From an uncultured Pelagibacteraceae bacterium (lineage in GTDB: Bacteria; Pseudomonadota; Alphaproteobacteria; Pelagibacterales; Pelagibacteraceae), in assembly GCA_902532225.1 (NCBI GenBank), contig CACAHI010000001.1, positions 1 to 64,000 on the forward strand: a stretch of 64,000 nt of DNA. The letters are read 5' to 3'. Numbering within the stretch: the first letter of the stretch is position 1; each line of letters opens with the position of its first letter. Below, piece by piece: positions 18,046 through 26,130 of this stretch. The notes below the pieces were generated by a model. It was given only the letters and a program-made list of their open reading frames with translations. It did no database searches and had not been told where the DNA came from. Position numbers and translations under genes: made by a program.

Positions 18046-18084
18046 GCGCCTGTAGCTCAATTGGATAGAGCGCTTGGCTACGGA
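18046..18084 (+). pseudogene. 5' half of host tRNA-Arg(ACG), interrupted in the anticodon loop (attL)
   Basis: GCGCCTGTAGCTCAATTGGATAGAGCGCTTGGCTACGGA; joining to 26093-26130 gives a complete cloverleaf with anticodon ACG and encoded CCA. Confidence 0.93.
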
Positions 18085-18164
18085 TGTCCCGTTAAGAAAT
18101 AAATCTCTTCTATAAATAGCTTATCCCAACACGAATCGACTGGCAATAAAAATTTTATTTTTTG

Positions 18165-18182
18165 GGAACTCTATGGGAACTC
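18165..18182 (+). repeat. Left arm-type integrase-site candidates: GGAACTC x2, 11-bp period
   Basis: GGGAACTCTATGGGAACTC; GGAACTC at 18165-18171 and 18176-18182; same motif repeated beside attR. Confidence 0.75.
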
Positions 18183-18426
18183 TACTAATTAAATTTATCT
18201 TTTAAAAATGAAACACCCTAACGCATTTTTTAAACAAGAAACACGCAACTTAAATAAACTATTTCTCGCACCAATTAATGTTTTTGTAAGTGCAAATTTC
18301 GCATTTAAAAGCTCATAGACGCACGACAATTGTTGTTGAGTACATCGAGTCAAAAATCTATTCAACGAGCAACTAGAGTCTATCTTTGGACTCGCAAACA
18401 CTATTTTAAACGCATACCTAAACCCG

Positions 18427-18670
18427 CGCCGCCTACGGCGTTATTGTATTCTCTTGATGCGATGCTGGATGCATCGCAAGCTCAGCTTCCTAAGGGAAGC
18501 TTCGCTTCGCTAACGGAGCTTCGCTCCGTATTGAGTTACTAAAGTAACTCAACTCGATCACCGCTTCGCGGTGATCTCGTTTTAACATCCGTGATCTCGT
18601 AATAAAATTAGAGGTCCCAAAAGCATGCTTTTCGAATTTCGAAACTTTGTTTTAAGGTTAGGGTACCTAA
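18427..18670. repeat. Cluster of about nine consecutive inverted repeats / stem-loops
   Basis: CGCCG-CCTA-CGGCG (18427-18440); GCGATGC-TGGAT-GCATCGC (18459-18477); AGCTTCC-TAAG-GGAAGCT (18484-18501); ACGGAGC-TTC-GCTCCGT (18513-18529); TTGAGTTAC-TAAA-GTAACTCAA (18531-18552); GATCACCGC-TTC-GCGGTGATC (18556-18576); AAAAGCATGCTTTT (18619-18632); TTTCGAATTTCGAAA (18630-18644); TTAGG-GTA-CCTAA (18658-18670). Confidence 0.9.
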
Positions 18671-18809
18671 ACCAAATAAGGAATCTTTATAGTCTAACTA
18701 AAGAGTTTGATTCAGAGAGCTTTAGAGCTGAAAAACATATTGGAAAAAATAATAAAAAATTTTAATCGAATAGTGTTGGATTATCCTATATAAATTATTT
18801 ATTCGTGAC

Positions 18810-18884
18810 GGACCGGTAGCTTCAATTGGATAGAGCGCGCCGCTACGGACGGCGAGGTTGAGGGTTCGACTCCTTCTCGGTCCA
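18810..18884 (+). tRNA. Element-encoded complete tRNA-Arg(ACG), CCA not encoded
   Basis: Acceptor GGACCGG/TCGGTCC, anticodon stem CGCCG/CGGCG with loop CTACGGA (anticodon ACG), T-arm GAGGG-TTCGACT-CCTTC. Confidence 0.9.
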
Positions 18885-19404
18885 CGAAAATTTCTGAAAA
18901 AATTATTTTGAAACTCGCTACTACTGCTGCATGATTCAGTGTTGGGCACCGACAACAATAGCAGCGAGAGATTTACTATTAATGTTGAGGGCTAATATAG
19001 AATTTAAAATTTAATTTTGAACCGTGGATATATGGGCATGCAGCGAGGAAATTTTGTGCAAGCAAACCTAACCAAGAACCATGGACAAGATTTTTAATGA
19101 GGTTAACCAGTTTAGTTAGCTTAAAAAATTTGTTACTTTTGAATGAAACACTTACCTTGAATGTACGGGGAATAATTCCGGAGGTTACCCTCGAATTATT
19201 TTTCTCAAAGCATTGAATTAATTTATTTTTTGAAAAATACACTGGGGATCATAGGGGAACAGTTCGGAGTAATTAAAAGTAATTATACCGTCTCTTGGAG
19301 CTGCTCAAAACTTATTCAAACAAGCTAATTTTGGCTAACTTTACTGGTACACATTAGCCCACTTTTTATTCAAAAGTTCTGTTGCCCAAGTTCTCTGACA
19401 AGTT

Positions 19405-19728
19405 TTAGTGTAATCGAGGAACAAGAATTTTGGCTTCCGGAGCTCTGCCCTGACCGTTGAGTTTTAGATCGATTAATTTTTTCTCTTCTAACACTCTCAA
19501 CTTTTCCCACTTGATTGATCTGTGTACTCCAACAAGTTCCTCTAGTTTTTTATTCGGAATTTTTATGAAAGTATGTGCGGTTCTAGATAGTTCACCTCTG
19601 CTAACCATTATCCCCTCTTGCATTCGAATATATAAAAATATTCTAACGGCATTTACGCCGTACTTGCTGAACTCTAATAATTGATTCACGCTGATAGGTC
19701 CTCTAATAAATTTACCTTTATCGTACAT
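19405..19728 (-). CDS. Hypothetical protein, possible winged-helix/HTH DNA-binding
   Basis: 107 aa; MVSRGELSRTAHTFIKIPNKKLEELVGVHRSIKWEKLRVLEEKKLIDLK has an HTH-like pattern; after the pol gene on the same strand. Confidence 0.6.
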   Translation of the reverse strand: MYDKGKFIRGPISVNQLLEFSKYGVNAVRIFLYIRMQEGIMVSRGELSRTAHTFIKIPNKKLEELVGVHRSIKWEKLRVLEEKKLIDLKLNGQGRAPEAKILVPRLH

Positions 19729-19758
19729 CAGTTATATACCATTATTATTATATTAACA

Positions 19759-21594
19759 TTAAACATATATACCCCTGTCCACCTTTAAGGTTACCTCTTG
19801 CCTATGTTTTATATTTTTGAATTTGTCTATTTCGTTAAATATTAAATCAAATATTTTCTGATCCTGAGGTTCTTGTTTAAAGTTTCCTCGATGTAGTTCT
19901 GCATCAACTTGTATTTCACCGCCTACTATGTGTCGAGCAGCATCAATCATACATTGCTTTGCAGTTCTAATCATATCCCTATGTTCAGGGATCGGGCATT
20001 CAATTAAAAATGCATCGTGAATCATTGCGCAAACTTTTATGTTTGAGTTACACAATCTTATTAATGCATTACGCAACACATCCGCCGCCGTTGCTTGTAT
20101 TGGAAAATTAATCACCGACCTTGGATTAATAAATTTATCTTTAGGAAATCTTCTGTCCCAACCGTTAGGTGTTGAAATGACTCCGAACATTTGAGCGTGG
20201 TTCGAGTGCTGCTCATTCCATTCAAAGTATTTAGAATAAATTTCTTTATATTTTTTTAATAGTCCAGCAGCTTCCGATTGTGTAATTCCATATTGCTTTA
20301 GACTCTTAGCCATGCTGCGGCTTCCCATTCCATAGTTACTTGCAAGAACAATAACTTTAAATATTTTTCTTTGTTCAGGATGAGATTGTTTTGTTGCATC
20401 CTCAGGAATAGCACCAGCAAGTTTTGCAGTGTGTAAATAAATATCGCCTGAATTATAAGCTTCTAATAAATTTTCATCACCACTCAATTGCGCCGCTATA
20501 AATGGTTCCTCTGATTTATAGTCTAGATAAGCTAAAACATTTCCATAACTAGGTCTTAAAAAGTTTCTTGCCCATTTAGAATTTCCGAATATCCATTTGG
20601 TACTTGGATTGCATCTTCCAGTAGTCGTGCCAAACATTTTAAATCCGCCATTTGGCCTATACCTATTATCCTCAGAAACATTGAATTCTGTTAGTTTTGT
20701 TTGGTTACTCAGATCAAATACTTTTGAAACAGCTTTTATATCGGGATAAGTCTCTTTGAAAATATCGAAAGTATCACCATTAGTTTTTAGTTTTCCTTTT
20801 GGTGTCTTAGGCCATTCAGTAATTAAATCTAATTTTCTTACTAGCTGCTCAAACTTTTGATGTGAGAATTTTGATTTCTCGTCCCAAAGTCCAAGTGATT
20901 GATTTAGTTCTTGGATTACAGAATCTTTTACCAAGGGCCAATAATCATTAAAAGTTTTCATTTGCTTTACATCAACGGGCATTCCATTTTTTAAAACAGA
21001 AGCAACACACGCCATTGATTGACCGCGCTCCAAAGCTTGCTCCAATAAAGTTTCATAATCGTTGCCGCAAGTTTTTTCTAAATCTTGTAACAAGCCATAG
21101 AATACATGCTCCGACATCAACACATCTTTTTCGCAATAATTTAAAATCTTTTCTCTTTCATTCTCGGTCCAAGTGTTCTGTTTAATACACATATCTCTAA
21201 AATATTCTTTTTCTTCTTTTGAAGTAGGGTGAGGGAACTCGTAAGCTCTTGCAGCAGCAAGTAACGAGAGCTCAGGCCAACGGCCTTTATATAATTTTGC
21301 TAACTCAGTCCAACAATCAAACACATAAGGCGGACGGCCCATTAACATATTTAAAAAATATCCTACCTCTGCATTTGCGTAATGACAAACGAACATTGTC
21401 TTTTCAAAATCAAAATGATGTTGCGCCATGTTTCGTTGCCCATAATCCCAAATCTTTAATGTTTGTCCCGTGGATAAATCTTTATAGACTGCGCATAAAG
21501 CTTTAGTGCAATAGGTGTTTGAAACATCTGACTGAAACTCCGTGTCAACAACAACGACACGGAATTTAGTTTTAATGTATTCAAGAAAACTCAT
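19759..21594 (-). CDS. Phage-type (T7-like) family A DNA polymerase with 3'-5' exonuclease domain
   Basis: 611 aa; exo motifs VVDTEF, CHYANAEVGYFLNML, YCEKDVLM; pol motifs LDYKSEEPF (A), RKIFKVIVLASNYGMG (B), MIHDAFLIE (C). Confidence 0.95.
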   Translation of the reverse strand: MSFLEYIKTKFRVVVVDTEFQSDVSNTYCTKALCAVYKDLSTGQTLKIWDYGQRNMAQHHFDFEKTMFVCHYANAEVGYFLNMLMGRPPYVFDCWTELAKLYKGRWPELSLLAAARAYEFPHPTSKEEKEYFRDMCIKQNTWTENEREKILNYCEKDVLMSEHVFYGLLQDLEKTCGNDYETLLEQALERGQSMACVASVLKNGMPVDVKQMKTFNDYWPLVKDSVIQELNQSLGLWDEKSKFSHQKFEQLVRKLDLITEWPKTPKGKLKTNGDTFDIFKETYPDIKAVSKVFDLSNQTKLTEFNVSEDNRYRPNGGFKMFGTTTGRCNPSTKWIFGNSKWARNFLRPSYGNVLAYLDYKSEEPFIAAQLSGDENLLEAYNSGDIYLHTAKLAGAIPEDATKQSHPEQRKIFKVIVLASNYGMGSRSMAKSLKQYGITQSEAAGLLKKYKEIYSKYFEWNEQHSNHAQMFGVISTPNGWDRRFPKDKFINPRSVINFPIQATAADVLRNALIRLCNSNIKVCAMIHDAFLIECPIPEHRDMIRTAKQCMIDAARHIVGGEIQVDAELHRGNFKQEPQDQKIFDLIFNEIDKFKNIKHRQEVTLKVDRGIYV

Positions 21595-22187
21595 TTGATT
21601 AAACCAATTGTTCTCTTCACAATTTCGTGTTCAGTAGAATCAATTATTCTTTCAGCAAAAGATTTCTTTAAATGGTTTAATATCTCATCACTATCGGGCC
21701 ACTGAGGATGTCCAAGGACCTCCGGATCACGGGGTTGCTCTAGCATATAACTTTTAATTGAATCATCCCAATATATTTTCACCCATTGCTTTTGTGCATC
21801 GGGAATAATATTTTTTATTTGATTGTGAACTTCCATAACTCTATTTGAAAATGGACTAGGTTGTTTTGCTAACCAAATAAATCTTTGCATATTAGCTGCG
21901 ATTACGCATGGGCAAACAATTGCAGATTTAACTTGCGAGGGATTTAGTAACTGAACAATTTTCTCATCTGTCTCATCGTCCTTACCTTGGATTAACCATT
22001 CTTTCATAGCTCCTCCGCCGTCTCGCTGCTCATACATATTCACAATGTCTAAATCCTCAATAGAATTGCCATAAATTTGAATAAAATCTGAGTTCTTTGG
22101 TTTTCTTATTTGCCACTCTTGCGGTTTGGTTGTTGCCAGTGTTGCAAGTCTAGCGGCAGTCTTTCTGTGTTTATTTGGATCGAACAT
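21591..22187 (-). CDS. Hypothetical protein, translationally coupled to the polymerase
   Basis: 198 aa; 4-nt overlap with the polymerase start; no family recognised. Confidence 0.75.
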   Translation of the reverse strand: MFDPNKHRKTAARLATLATTKPQEWQIRKPKNSDFIQIYGNSIEDLDIVNMYEQRDGGGAMKEWLIQGKDDETDEKIVQLLNPSQVKSAIVCPCVIAANMQRFIWLAKQPSPFSNRVMEVHNQIKNIIPDAQKQWVKIYWDDSIKSYMLEQPRDPEVLGHPQWPDSDEILNHLKKSFAERIIDSTEHEIVKRTIGLIK

Positions 22188-22210
22188 AATAATAAATCTC
22201 CTTTTAAGTT

Positions 22211-22621
22211 TTAATGTTTCGTTTCTAGAAAAGAACCAAAATCAAACTCCAATTGATCTTTGTCCGTTCGCAAAGTAACGGGCTCAGGTTCTTCTTCTTC
22301 CGTGTTATTAGGTTCCTCATCTTCTTGGAATAACCAGTGATCGGGAACATAATCTTTTAATTGGCGCTCAACTAAATTTAATCTAGCTTCTCTGCTCTCT
22401 AGTCTAGTTATCAACGCCCAATATCTTCCGGATAATCTAATATAAGCATCCGTAAGATTTTCAGTTCTTTTTAAATTTGAATTATATAATTGTTTTATTT
22501 CTGTTTTTATTTCCGGTAACTCTGAAAGATGATCCGAAACTTCTTTGATTAAATTATTATTTGTCTTTGCAAGTTCTAATCCAAGAACATATCTAGGGTT
22601 TCTATCTTTTCTCAATCGCAT
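22211..22621 (-). CDS. Hypothetical protein with acidic tail and C-terminal QLEFDFGSF
   Basis: 136 aa ORF in the colinear operon. Confidence 0.75.
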   Translation of the reverse strand: MRLRKDRNPRYVLGLELAKTNNNLIKEVSDHLSELPEIKTEIKQLYNSNLKRTENLTDAYIRLSGRYWALITRLESREARLNLVERQLKDYVPDHWLFQEDEEPNNTEEEEPEPVTLRTDKDQLEFDFGSFLETKH

Positions 22622-22844
22622 TTAATCTTTCCTCCAGCATTACAACTGCTTTTGATAAGCGGTCTATTATTGTGAATGATCTCAAAGTTAAATTTTTCAT
22701 AGCTTTGTAATCAACTTGATTGTGTTCGCATACTGCGGGTTCTTTAGGTTTTCTTTTTGGACCTGAAAAGACTGCGCGTATAGTTTTACTGTTTGGGTAT
22801 TTCTCATAGGGAGGTGTACCAAAATTATTCTTTTTATTTTTCAT
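22602..22844 (-). CDS. Hypothetical small protein
   Basis: 80 aa; overlaps both neighbouring ORFs in the operon. Confidence 0.65.
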   Translation of the reverse strand: MKNKKNNFGTPPYEKYPNSKTIRAVFSGPKRKPKEPAVCEHNQVDYKAMKNLTLRSFTIIDRLSKAVVMLEERLNAIEKR

Positions 22845-23733
22845 TTAGTTTCCTTATTATTTCTAAGAGCTCACCGAAAGTTTCATCGCCTCTCAATTGG
22901 ATGTTATAAATTTCTTCGACTCTTGTTGTGAACGGTCGCTTATCATCAAGCGGTTTAGTGCTGCCGTTACTACCGTTAGCATAAGCGCGCCTATCAAACA
23001 TTCCAATTCCTGAAGTTCTTTCAACGGCATTTTCTAAATCATTTACGAGCTGCAACTTGGCTAAGGTGTTGTCCTCTGCTTTAGGAAATTTAAACTGATA
23101 GGATTTATCTTCGGGTTTTGGTTTATCGTACCACGGCTTTTCATGCGGTATAGGTCCAATAGGAATTACATTTGGATATTCGTCTTTCCCGTTTGCTTCA
23201 CTTGGTTTGTTTGGTGTGTAAGCAACTTTTTTATTTGGCTTTTGTATTTTCTTTATTATCTTTTCAAACGGTCCAACTTTATCCAGCTTTTTATTTTTTA
23301 ATTCTTGTAACTCTTTTCGCTTATCTTCTTTTAAAATTTTAGCTGCTCTTCTTCGCAGATCGTTATATTCTTTAATTAACTTTGGATCTTGCTTATGGAA
23401 TCTAGCTGCATCTGAACCGGTACTCATAGCAATTATAGCTTCCGATGTTGTTAATGCGTCTTTGATATCTTTCCTCTTGAAGTAACCAGCTTTTGCAAGC
23501 TCATCGTATTTGTCATTCATCTTCACCGCATCTTTCATTGTGTAAGTCTTTTCAGTTTCATCGCCCCTGATCTCACCGTTTGGAAGTAATCTTACATTCT
23601 CAATAATTTTATTTGGATCACCCTCACCATGAAGAGCTGCAACTGAATCAATGTATTTGACTGCAATGTTTTGGTCCTCAGGTTTATTTGATTTGGATAA
23701 AATATTTAGTAATTGATTTTGAACTCGCTTCAT
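22834..23733 (-). CDS. Hypothetical protein
   Basis: 299 aa; overlaps neighbours; no family recognised. Confidence 0.75.
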   Translation of the reverse strand: MKRVQNQLLNILSKSNKPEDQNIAVKYIDSVAALHGEGDPNKIIENVRLLPNGEIRGDETEKTYTMKDAVKMNDKYDELAKAGYFKRKDIKDALTTSEAIIAMSTGSDAARFHKQDPKLIKEYNDLRRRAAKILKEDKRKELQELKNKKLDKVGPFEKIIKKIQKPNKKVAYTPNKPSEANGKDEYPNVIPIGPIPHEKPWYDKPKPEDKSYQFKFPKAEDNTLAKLQLVNDLENAVERTSGIGMFDRRAYANGSNGSTKPLDDKRPFTTRVEEIYNIQLRGDETFGELLEIIRKLNEK

Positions 23734-23993
23734 TACGGTTTCCTCTGATCTTTTTTGTAATTGCTGACTCTGCCGCCAGCGTTGTTGTTAGCTCTAGCGT
23801 TATGATGCAAGTTTTTATTTATAAACCTCTCCAAGCCGTCAATCGGATATCTAACAACACCGTCCATTTTTAAAAATGGCGGTCCGTTACCTAAAGCTCT
23901 TTTGTTTGCAAGAGTTCTTGTTGAAACTGATAAGCGCTCCGCGGCTTCTTTGGGTTTAAAAAATAATTTCATATTCTTAGCCCTTAAATGCAA
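23733..23993 (-). CDS. AlpA/excisionase-like HTH protein (start may be 23972)
   Basis: MKLFFKPKEAAERLSVSTRTLANKRALGNGPPFLKMDGVVRYPIDGLERFI: MerR-like HTH_17/AlpA pattern. Confidence 0.85.
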   Translation of the reverse strand: MHLRAKNMKLFFKPKEAAERLSVSTRTLANKRALGNGPPFLKMDGVVRYPIDGLERFINKNLHHNARANNNAGGRVSNYKKDQRKP

Positions 23994-24041
23994 ACAAGTG
24001 CAAAGAACAGAAAACTAACTTCCCGTTTTTAATTTCGGGAA

Positions 24042-24452
24042 CTATTTATTTTTTGGAAAATAGTCAGGATCGAAAATAATTTTTATTGTTTCAGTATTCC
24101 AAAACCTATCGATGTGTCTCTCAACTAATTTATATCTTTTGAATTGTCCGTTGGTTCGAATATCTTTTATCACGGTTAGGTTGGTCCATTTTTTATCTTC
24201 GTTGTCATCAAACGCAGCTCTCTTCTTACCTTTAAAAAATTTATCCAACACTTCATCAAGCATCTTTGATTTAGCAACTGCCATAGTAATTTTTCTTTTA
24301 GTCATTGGTTTAGAAACTTTTGTAGAATAAAATCCGAACAAGTAACCAAGTCTAAAATAAATATGTGAAAGCTTCCGTTTCTTGATTGCTTTTTTATATC
24401 CGTGTTTTTTGATTAACGCTAACGCAGCGCGCAATTTCTTGTCAGTGCCCAT
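24042..24452 (-). CDS. Hypothetical basic protein
   Basis: 136 aa, Lys/Arg-rich, between integrase and AlpA-like gene. Confidence 0.65.
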   Translation of the reverse strand: MGTDKKLRAALALIKKHGYKKAIKKRKLSHIYFRLGYLFGFYSTKVSKPMTKRKITMAVAKSKMLDEVLDKFFKGKKRAAFDDNEDKKWTNLTVIKDIRTNGQFKRYKLVERHIDRFWNTETIKIIFDPDYFPKNK

Positions 24453-24494
24453 GGCCGAATAATAACTTTTATTCGACCACGAACCAAGAATTAA

Positions 24495-25823
24495 TTATGC
24501 AGCAAACGCCTTTGATATTTTCTCTGATTCATTCATCAAGAATTCAGGATCAGCAGCAGCATAAATTTCAGTAGTTTGAACCGTCGCGTGTCCAAGCATC
24601 TTTTGTAACGCTCTTAAACTAACTCCACTACTCACACTGAAAACTGCAAAAGTATGTCTTAAAGATTTTAAGTCTCTATCTTCAACACCAGCAGCTTCTT
24701 TGATTTTTTTCCAAAGTTTTCTAACTTCAAAGATGTGTTTTAATTTACAAGGTTTCAATCCTCTTTTGGTTCTACGCATTTGTCCCATTCGCCAATTAGG
24801 AAAAAGATATTTATGTCTTAAATCATCTTTCTTGTAATAGTGAACCGGATCAGCATTCGATCTCAATTCAATGATGTATCTTAAATGTTCAATCATTGTA
24901 TCGTTGATCGGTCTAGACCATTGTCCAACTTTAGATTTTTTATAGTGAATTAATTTTTTATCTAAATCAATTTGATCGATAGTTAAATTAAACACCTCTG
25001 ATTGTGGGCGCCCGCCGCAATACAACGCTGCAAGAATTGCGTTACAAGGAACTCTGAATTCAGGTTTCTTTCTGAATTTTATAAGCTGCGTAATCAGCTT
25101 TTTCATCGCCTTTGTATTGTAGTAATCGTAATGATCTTTCTCTTCTACATTCAATTCTTTCTTCGGCATTGATGCGGGATTCTTGCCAATAAAATAATTC
25201 TTTCGCATTGCGTAATTATAATATTTACGAATTAAACGAACCATTCTATTTGCAGAATATTTGGTCCTTGATGTTATTGCTCCGTGATATTCAAAGATAT
25301 CTTCCGTTGTTATATCACTCAATCTCTTCGATTTAATGTTCATAGCATCGGGATATTTTTTCCAAAGTTTCTGAATACCAGCATCGTTGCTAGTTCCATA
25401 AATATAAGCGCCTATTTGACCGATCTCATCATCAAGGTTTCTTTTATTTCTAGAACTTGTTTTTGCATCCAGTTTCTTTTTCTCAAACTCTTCAACAATA
25501 TCACCTAGAGTTTTTTCTTTTTGTCGAGCAGCTTTAGCAAGTATTGGATCTTTGCCCTGAACATTATCAGCTTTAATCATGGCACCTAACTTACGGGCCT
25601 GAGTAATTGACATCTCAGGAAAATCACCGATCTTTGTTCTCTTGCTATATTTGTATTCAGAAATATATCGCTGCAAGTAAAATGATTTCTCACCAGTAAT
25701 CTGAACATATATTCTCAATCCAATACATTCAGAATCTAGAAGATAATATCTCTGATTTTTAGGATGCAATTTTTTAATCATTGCGTCCGTATATTTTTTT
25801 CTCTCTTGTTTATCGTGTTTCAT
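24495..25823 (-). CDS. Tyrosine recombinase/integrase
   Basis: 442 aa; N-terminal DUF4102-like arm-binding domain, catalytic LYCGGRPQSEVFNL, LKSLRHTFAVFSV, MLGHATVQTTEIYA. Confidence 0.96.
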   Translation of the reverse strand: MKHDKQERKKYTDAMIKKLHPKNQRYYLLDSECIGLRIYVQITGEKSFYLQRYISEYKYSKRTKIGDFPEMSITQARKLGAMIKADNVQGKDPILAKAARQKEKTLGDIVEEFEKKKLDAKTSSRNKRNLDDEIGQIGAYIYGTSNDAGIQKLWKKYPDAMNIKSKRLSDITTEDIFEYHGAITSRTKYSANRMVRLIRKYYNYAMRKNYFIGKNPASMPKKELNVEEKDHYDYYNTKAMKKLITQLIKFRKKPEFRVPCNAILAALYCGGRPQSEVFNLTIDQIDLDKKLIHYKKSKVGQWSRPINDTMIEHLRYIIELRSNADPVHYYKKDDLRHKYLFPNWRMGQMRRTKRGLKPCKLKHIFEVRKLWKKIKEAAGVEDRDLKSLRHTFAVFSVSSGVSLRALQKMLGHATVQTTEIYAAADPEFLMNESEKISKAFAA

Positions 25824-25904
25824 TAATAGTCCTTTCGTTTTTTGTTTTTGTTATCACGAGTAAAAGATGAGGTGTTCTAAATAGGATTCCCAAAGTGAAA
25901 AACG

Positions 25905-25975
25905 GGAACTCATTTCGGAACTCTACGGGAACTCTAGCGGCAATCTGAATCATGTTCGGAACTCTATCGGAACTC
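25905..25975 (+). repeat. Right arm-type integrase-site candidates: five GGAACTC direct repeats
   Basis: GGAACTC at 25905, 25917, 25928, 25958 and 25969 (periods 12, 11, 30, 11). Confidence 0.78.
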
Positions 25976-26085
25976 GATGAGTCGTGAACAAACGGTGAAT
26001 CGTGCATACCTCTAAACCTCTTCTTTCTGTTGAAAAGATTTAGTTTCTTGCTATTGTTAAAAAGGGCATCGTGCGGAGCGTTTCA

Positions 26086-26130
26086 CTACGGACCAGGAGG
26101 TTCTGGGTTCAACTCCTAGCAGGCGCGCCA
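26086..26130 (+). pseudogene. 3' half of host tRNA-Arg(ACG) (attR)
   Basis: CTACGGACCAGGAGGTTCTGGGTTCAACTCCTAGCAGGCGCGCCA complements the 5' half at 18046-18084. Confidence 0.93.

Follow-up and report, generated by a model that had tools for sequence, protein, structure and literature searches.

Integrative elements of 8-10 kb in SAR11 bacteria: a family probably living as phage satellites, with a PolA-centred replication module and, in one copy, a carried tRNA

Few bacterial groups in the ocean are as abundant as SAR11. Several kinds of small mobile element invite comparison with the SAR11 locus described here. The TerS protein of a satellite is a mark of redirected helper packaging, and we know of no use of terS outside phage packaging. 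Tycheposons are tRNA-associated; like VEIMEs, they are small marine elements with tyrosine recombinases, and in these respects both resemble the SAR11 locus. The PICI-type satellites (SaPIs and Gram-negative PICIs) are small, encode an integrase, an AlpA-like regulator and replication genes of their own, and have no capsid/tail set. The PICMI satellites of Vibrionaceae combine a minimal gene set including int and alpA with the absence of capsid remodelling genes, and are defined by a DUF3987/DUF5906 primase and by integration at fis (PMC10803314). These PICMIs are devoid of terS, which is therefore not universal among satellites (PMC10803314).

The element studied here has the same general design as the PICI-type satellites, and terS is found in six of its seven SAR11 relatives. 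It differs from them in its replication, which is centred on a family A DNA polymerase (PolA) with no recognised primase or helicase, in the lack of terS in this particular copy, and in its host. No DUF3987/DUF5906 Pfam match was obtained in this copy, and the insertion sites of the family are tRNA genes or lpd, not fis; likewise, neither a P4-type primase-helicase nor capsid-size control genes were detected with Pfam or PHROG. A literature search returned no paper on SAR11 phage satellites or on a PolA-centred SAR11 type, and an earlier description among VEIMEs or tycheposons is possible. The element is probably an intact member of a SAR11 family of 8-10 kb integrative elements living as phage satellites, distinguished by its PolA-centred replication module and by a carried tRNA.

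The window, i.e. the whole stretch of 64,000 nucleotides that was analysed, belongs to a host assembly whose 57 contigs total 830,586 bp, at 68.6% completeness. The element spans 8,008 bp core to core (18078-26092) and splits the tRNA-Arg(ACG) gene of its SAR11 host within the anticodon loop, the 7-bp core CTACGGA being present at 18078-18084 and 26086-26092. Its features are the following.

18046-18084, plus strand: 5' half of the disrupted host tRNA-Arg(ACG), ending in the left core; the gene is intact at the same locus in L072-L075
18165-18182, plus strand: pair of GGAACTC repeats at the left end, 11-bp spacing; candidate integrase arm-type sites
18556-18576, no strand assigned: hairpin GATCACCGCTTCGCGGTGATC, inside a 1.3-kb region without called protein genes
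18810-18885, plus strand: complete element-borne tRNA-Arg(ACG), Rfam tRNA 48.7 bits, of a sequence unlike the host gene
19405-19728, minus strand: winged-helix protein, candidate replication initiator, 107 aa; cluster of seven loci; AlphaFold pLDDT 83.6
19759-21594, minus strand: family A DNA polymerase of the Leu762 type with a 3'-5' exonuclease domain, 611 aa
21591-22187, minus strand: candidate ssDNA-binding protein, 198 aa, directly upstream of polA across relatives; AlphaFold pLDDT 88.3
22211-22621, minus strand: protein of no assigned function, 136 aa
22602-22844, minus strand: protein of no assigned function, 80 aa
22834-23733, minus strand: protein of no assigned function, 299 aa
23733-23993, minus strand: AlpA/excisionase-like HTH protein, 86 aa; HTH_17 E=1.9e-5 (just under the cut-off), phrog_66 E=7.9e-8
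24042-24452, minus strand: protein of no assigned function, 136 aa; a similar-sized gene is kept in relatives between int and the gene at the small HTH position
24495-25823, minus strand: tyrosine integrase with an arm-binding domain, 442 aa; Phage_integrase E=2.2e-17
25905-25975, plus strand: five GGAACTC repeats at the right end; candidate integrase arm-type sites
26086-26130, plus strand: right core and 3' half of the disrupted host tRNA-Arg(ACG)

All protein genes lie on the minus strand, in the order integrase, 136-aa protein, AlpA-like HTH protein, three proteins of no assigned function, 198-aa protein, PolA and 107-aa protein, and the main reading frames are all open and compact. Four related genomes have an intact tRNA here, with the same thiolase gene on one side and the same thioesterase gene on the other; the ends are therefore real and not a chance 7-mer, in agreement with the 8.0 kb between cores proposed in the initial annotation. 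With its integrase, its direct-repeat ends at a tRNA and an empty site elsewhere, the locus is an integrative element with a tyrosine recombinase. The integrase and the AlpA-like HTH protein named in that annotation are both recovered by profile matches, and the absences it reported hold as well: no Pfam or PHROG match to capsid, portal, terminase, lysis, primase or helicase proteins was found among the proteins of this copy, nor any Walker A motif. A scan for defence genes gave two weak matches only, both in relatives. The GGAACTC repeats, grouped near both ends and mostly 11-12 bp apart, form the pattern expected of integrase arm sites; these repeats and the complete tRNA-Arg(ACG) were missing from the initial annotation. 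The region of the hairpin may serve as an origin or packaging region; iterons common to the regions without called genes were looked for and none was found.

The polymerase had initially been described as a T7-like family A enzyme. Its family assignment is firm (DNA_pol_A E=1.1e-31; phrog_17 E=1.3e-49), and alignments reveal the conserved residues of both the exonuclease (D17, E19, Y153 and D157) and the polymerase (D358, E363, R409, K413, L417, Y421, H526 and D527), which are invariant across the family despite about 30% identity. Judged by the spacing of motif B, L417 is the counterpart of residue 762 in E. coli Pol I, and this leucine led us to drop the T7-like identity. PolAs with Leu762 are primarily those of temperate phages (PMC6302109). 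In the PolA tree, the SAR11 element clade is separated from pelagiphage HTVC027P and from cellular PolA (support 100/100) and contains two groups, the window copy with L032 (98/96) and the six terS-bearing relatives (100/99).

Two other proteins accompany PolA, so that the element is not polymerase-only. The best structural matches of the winged-helix family in the PDB are plasmid initiators (4pql, 5kbj and 4pt7), with probabilities mostly of 0.98-1.00 and E-values of 0.018-0.05, and weak PHROG matches point to helicase loaders and initiators. This protein is therefore a candidate initiator with a predicted RepA-like fold, the PDB fold-match E-values being above 0.01. Given its resemblance to plasmid initiators, the element may load the helicase-primase of the host and need not borrow that of a helper, as had been suggested. 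For the protein of about 200 aa, the fold matches at E<1e-3 comprise ten viral models, of which two are labelled DNA-binding, and PDB, Pfam and PHROG gave no match; a role in single-strand binding, drawn from poorly named viral models, is therefore kept as a lead.

Nothing was returned when the PolA of the window served as a single-sequence query against viral and genome contigs, and alignment queries were needed. The proposed search of SAR11 genomes for the same gene order with conserved ends was then fruitful, as it led to seven SAR11-type relatives (L032, L034, L035, L036, L037, L043 and L066), five of them with measured ends. Four full-length relatives were found among the 397 genomes of the SAR11 family search, the other matches being cellular Pol I; wider searches added L043, L066 and the viral contig L037. 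Matches at E<=1e-60 were present in 4/399 genomes of the genus, 6/395 of the class and 2/399 of the phylum sample, the window genome being included in each. More distant PolAs are encoded by Ruegeria, SAR324, gammaproteobacterial and other genomes, and cultured phages contribute PolAs of 23-27% identity among the matches listed. No match was obtained in viral contigs with a query built from the window's own PolA clade.

The relatives, whose PolAs are about 31-37% identical to that of the window copy, have a common gene order: integrase, small regulator, genes of no assigned function, the protein of about 200 aa, PolA and the winged-helix protein, the last being recognisable in most of the seven but not in all. 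None of the seven has a recognised capsid, portal or large-terminase gene. In the five that are measurable, 8.8-9.9 kb separate the ends: L032/L033 is bounded by a 42-bp tRNA-Arg repeat (about 9.9 kb if the contig is circular), L034 by a 41-bp tRNA-Met repeat (8,881 bp), L066 by a 39-bp tRNA-Val repeat (8,828 bp) and L043 by a 13-bp repeat at the lpd 3' end (8,811 bp), while L036, of about 8.95 kb, is also inserted at that lpd site, its repeat being degenerate. L035 is truncated by the contig edge and is not among the measured five. The three tRNA-inserted relatives (L032/L033, L034 and L066) keep a full tRNA at one end, whereas neither half is restored in the window copy. L037, from a viral-contig collection, is a closed circle of 9,078 bp (99-bp terminal overlap) with a single AATACACTCTTAA, the lpd core, i.e. 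a rebuilt attP; no phage DNA matching this circle was found. As a side observation, a family 8 glycosyltransferase gene (L033, 554-1486) is an apparent cargo of the L032 element. In L067 (428-6643), a relative in another family, the genes for PolA, the protein of about 200 aa and the winged-helix protein adjoin genes that resemble a type I restriction-modification system.

The terS gene is present in L034, L035, L036, L037, L043 and L066. Pfam Terminase_2 is above the cut-off in the first three, and the TerS proteins of the other three fall in the same cluster. The window copy and L032 contain neither terS nor, by tblastn, a relic of it. Among 50,697 phage records, the best TerS matches are those of HTVC027P, HTVC023P and 023Pt_psg01, at 29-33% identity. 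In the TerS tree, one branch divides the satellites from the pelagiphages, and two Pseudoalteromonas phages, themselves long-branched, group with the satellites; this layout does not settle which phage is closest or serves as helper. A helper would most likely be an HTVC023P-like phage, although the TerS similarity to pelagiphages is only about 30%. Phages of the HTVC023P type have the closest TerS and the same host group, but are full phages of 57-61 kb; HTVC027P has a PolA of its own, only distantly related, together with a primase and a helicase. In the latter phage (L083, 13818-20513), terS and terL lie about 5 kb apart on opposite strands.

The window copy is the only member of the family that carries a complete second tRNA-Arg(ACG). 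It is the sole complete one found in the available 68.6% of the host genome, and the remainder may hold a second host tRNA-Arg(ACG). The carried gene apparently compensates for the one broken by insertion. A search for a 39-mer of it, with up to three mismatches allowed, picked out the window genome and, among 299 others of the genus, just two (G487 and G490); viral contigs gave no match to the element-borne tRNA. In these two genomes (L092, 11834-11911; L093, 9761-9838), the element-type tRNA is a resident gene at the same locus without the element, with a paired, compensatory change in the anticodon stem. It lies beside the thiolase gene, a 2.7-kb stretch including a gene for a 611-aa protein extending to the thioesterase, and an exact search for remnant halves of the standard tRNA found none in either locus. 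A history of replacement is plausible from the sequences of G487 and G490, the alternative being a native allele. Some members of the family, the window copy included, may make the host dependent on them: they would break a tRNA gene that the host cannot do without and bring in a foreign substitute able to end as a resident gene. At the same locus in L082 (1461-1537), there is a tRNA-Arg(ACG) of yet another, very different sequence, which suggests repeated replacement of the tRNA gene at this site.

Several other explanations of the locus can be considered. The initial annotation held a decayed prophage to be the main alternative, i.e. a deletion derivative of a temperate phage in which polymerase, integrase and regulator are leftovers after the loss of structural genes. 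Indeed, the PolA module is also found beside structural genes in the distant viral contigs L060-L063, where PolA, mostly with the protein of about 200 aa, is near large terminase, capsid, protease or portal genes. The module is therefore spread more widely; nevertheless, in the PolA tree these contigs do not belong to the SAR11 group, they have replication genes but not ends in common with the SAR11 elements, and they do not imply that the window copy arose by recent deletion. L060, L061 and L063 have PolA in common with the window element, and L061 and L063 also the protein of about 200 aa, but they carry large terminase subunit, capsid, protease or portal genes that the element lacks; these three resemble capsid-forming satellites or small phages. 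The window copy has no broken genes, its seven relatives keep the compact order, L037 is a closed circle without structural genes, and no relative with the same genes plus a structural module at homologous ends was found. Since the seven relatives are compact and no SAR11 copy has a structural module, decay from a prophage is very improbable.

An autonomous integrative replicon, relying on its own initiator and polymerase and spreading by transformation, vesicles or gene transfer agents, would agree with the lack of terS or any other packaging gene in the window copy and L032, with a replication module that looks fairly complete, and with the restriction-modification-like neighbours in L067. 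The presence of terS in most of the SAR11 relatives, the uniform sizes of 8-10 kb and the absence of any plasmid record matching the Ruegeria polymerase homologue make this explanation unlikely, although the window copy itself may move by a route such as transformation or vesicles. The least credence is given to an immobile, domesticated island retained for its supply of an essential tRNA-Arg(ACG), even if its tRNA is the only complete one found and two related genomes have a close version as a resident gene without the element. In fact, the integrase appears undamaged, as do both cores and the arm repeats, and precise excision would therefore restore the host gene.

Support for the satellite reading is good at the level of the family, in which the following can be read directly: insertion sites in a tRNA anticodon loop or at the lpd 3' end, a closed circle with attP, a conserved integrase-to-polA order, the recurrence of terS and no structural gene set in the element or its close relatives. 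Since the window copy and its nearest relative L032 lack terS, and no other packaging-redirection gene was recognised in the window copy, its own status is inferred by kinship. The initial proposal is upheld in part: the copy is satellite-sized, looks intact and mobile, and has a dedicated polymerase as its replication gene. The terS-bearing relatives and the one excised circle strengthen the proposal further.

As phage satellites, these elements would respond to helper infection through the AlpA-like protein, which may turn on excision. The winged-helix protein would then mark the origin and recruit host DnaB-DnaG, the protein of about 200 aa would coat or organise single strands, and the element PolA would copy the circle, perhaps into concatemers. 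The helper would package the DNA, with the satellite TerS as guide in those members that encode it; the window copy would have to rely on a pac/cos-like site of the helper or on some other route. In this copy, the carried tRNA-Arg(ACG) would replace the host gene lost on insertion. These elements provide a concrete satellite-type family in SAR11, with measured ends, a closed circle and a candidate helper group. Their replication module, devoid of the expected helicase, makes it possible to test by what means a lone phage-type PolA initiates and finishes replication, and the findings on the tRNA suggest that, in streamlined genomes, even an essential tRNA gene can be exchanged by mobile elements.

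Beyond the element, positions 33001-55000 of the window possibly constitute a second variable region: many of its 1-kb blocks have a GC content as low as 21-25%, and the GC skew switches sign.
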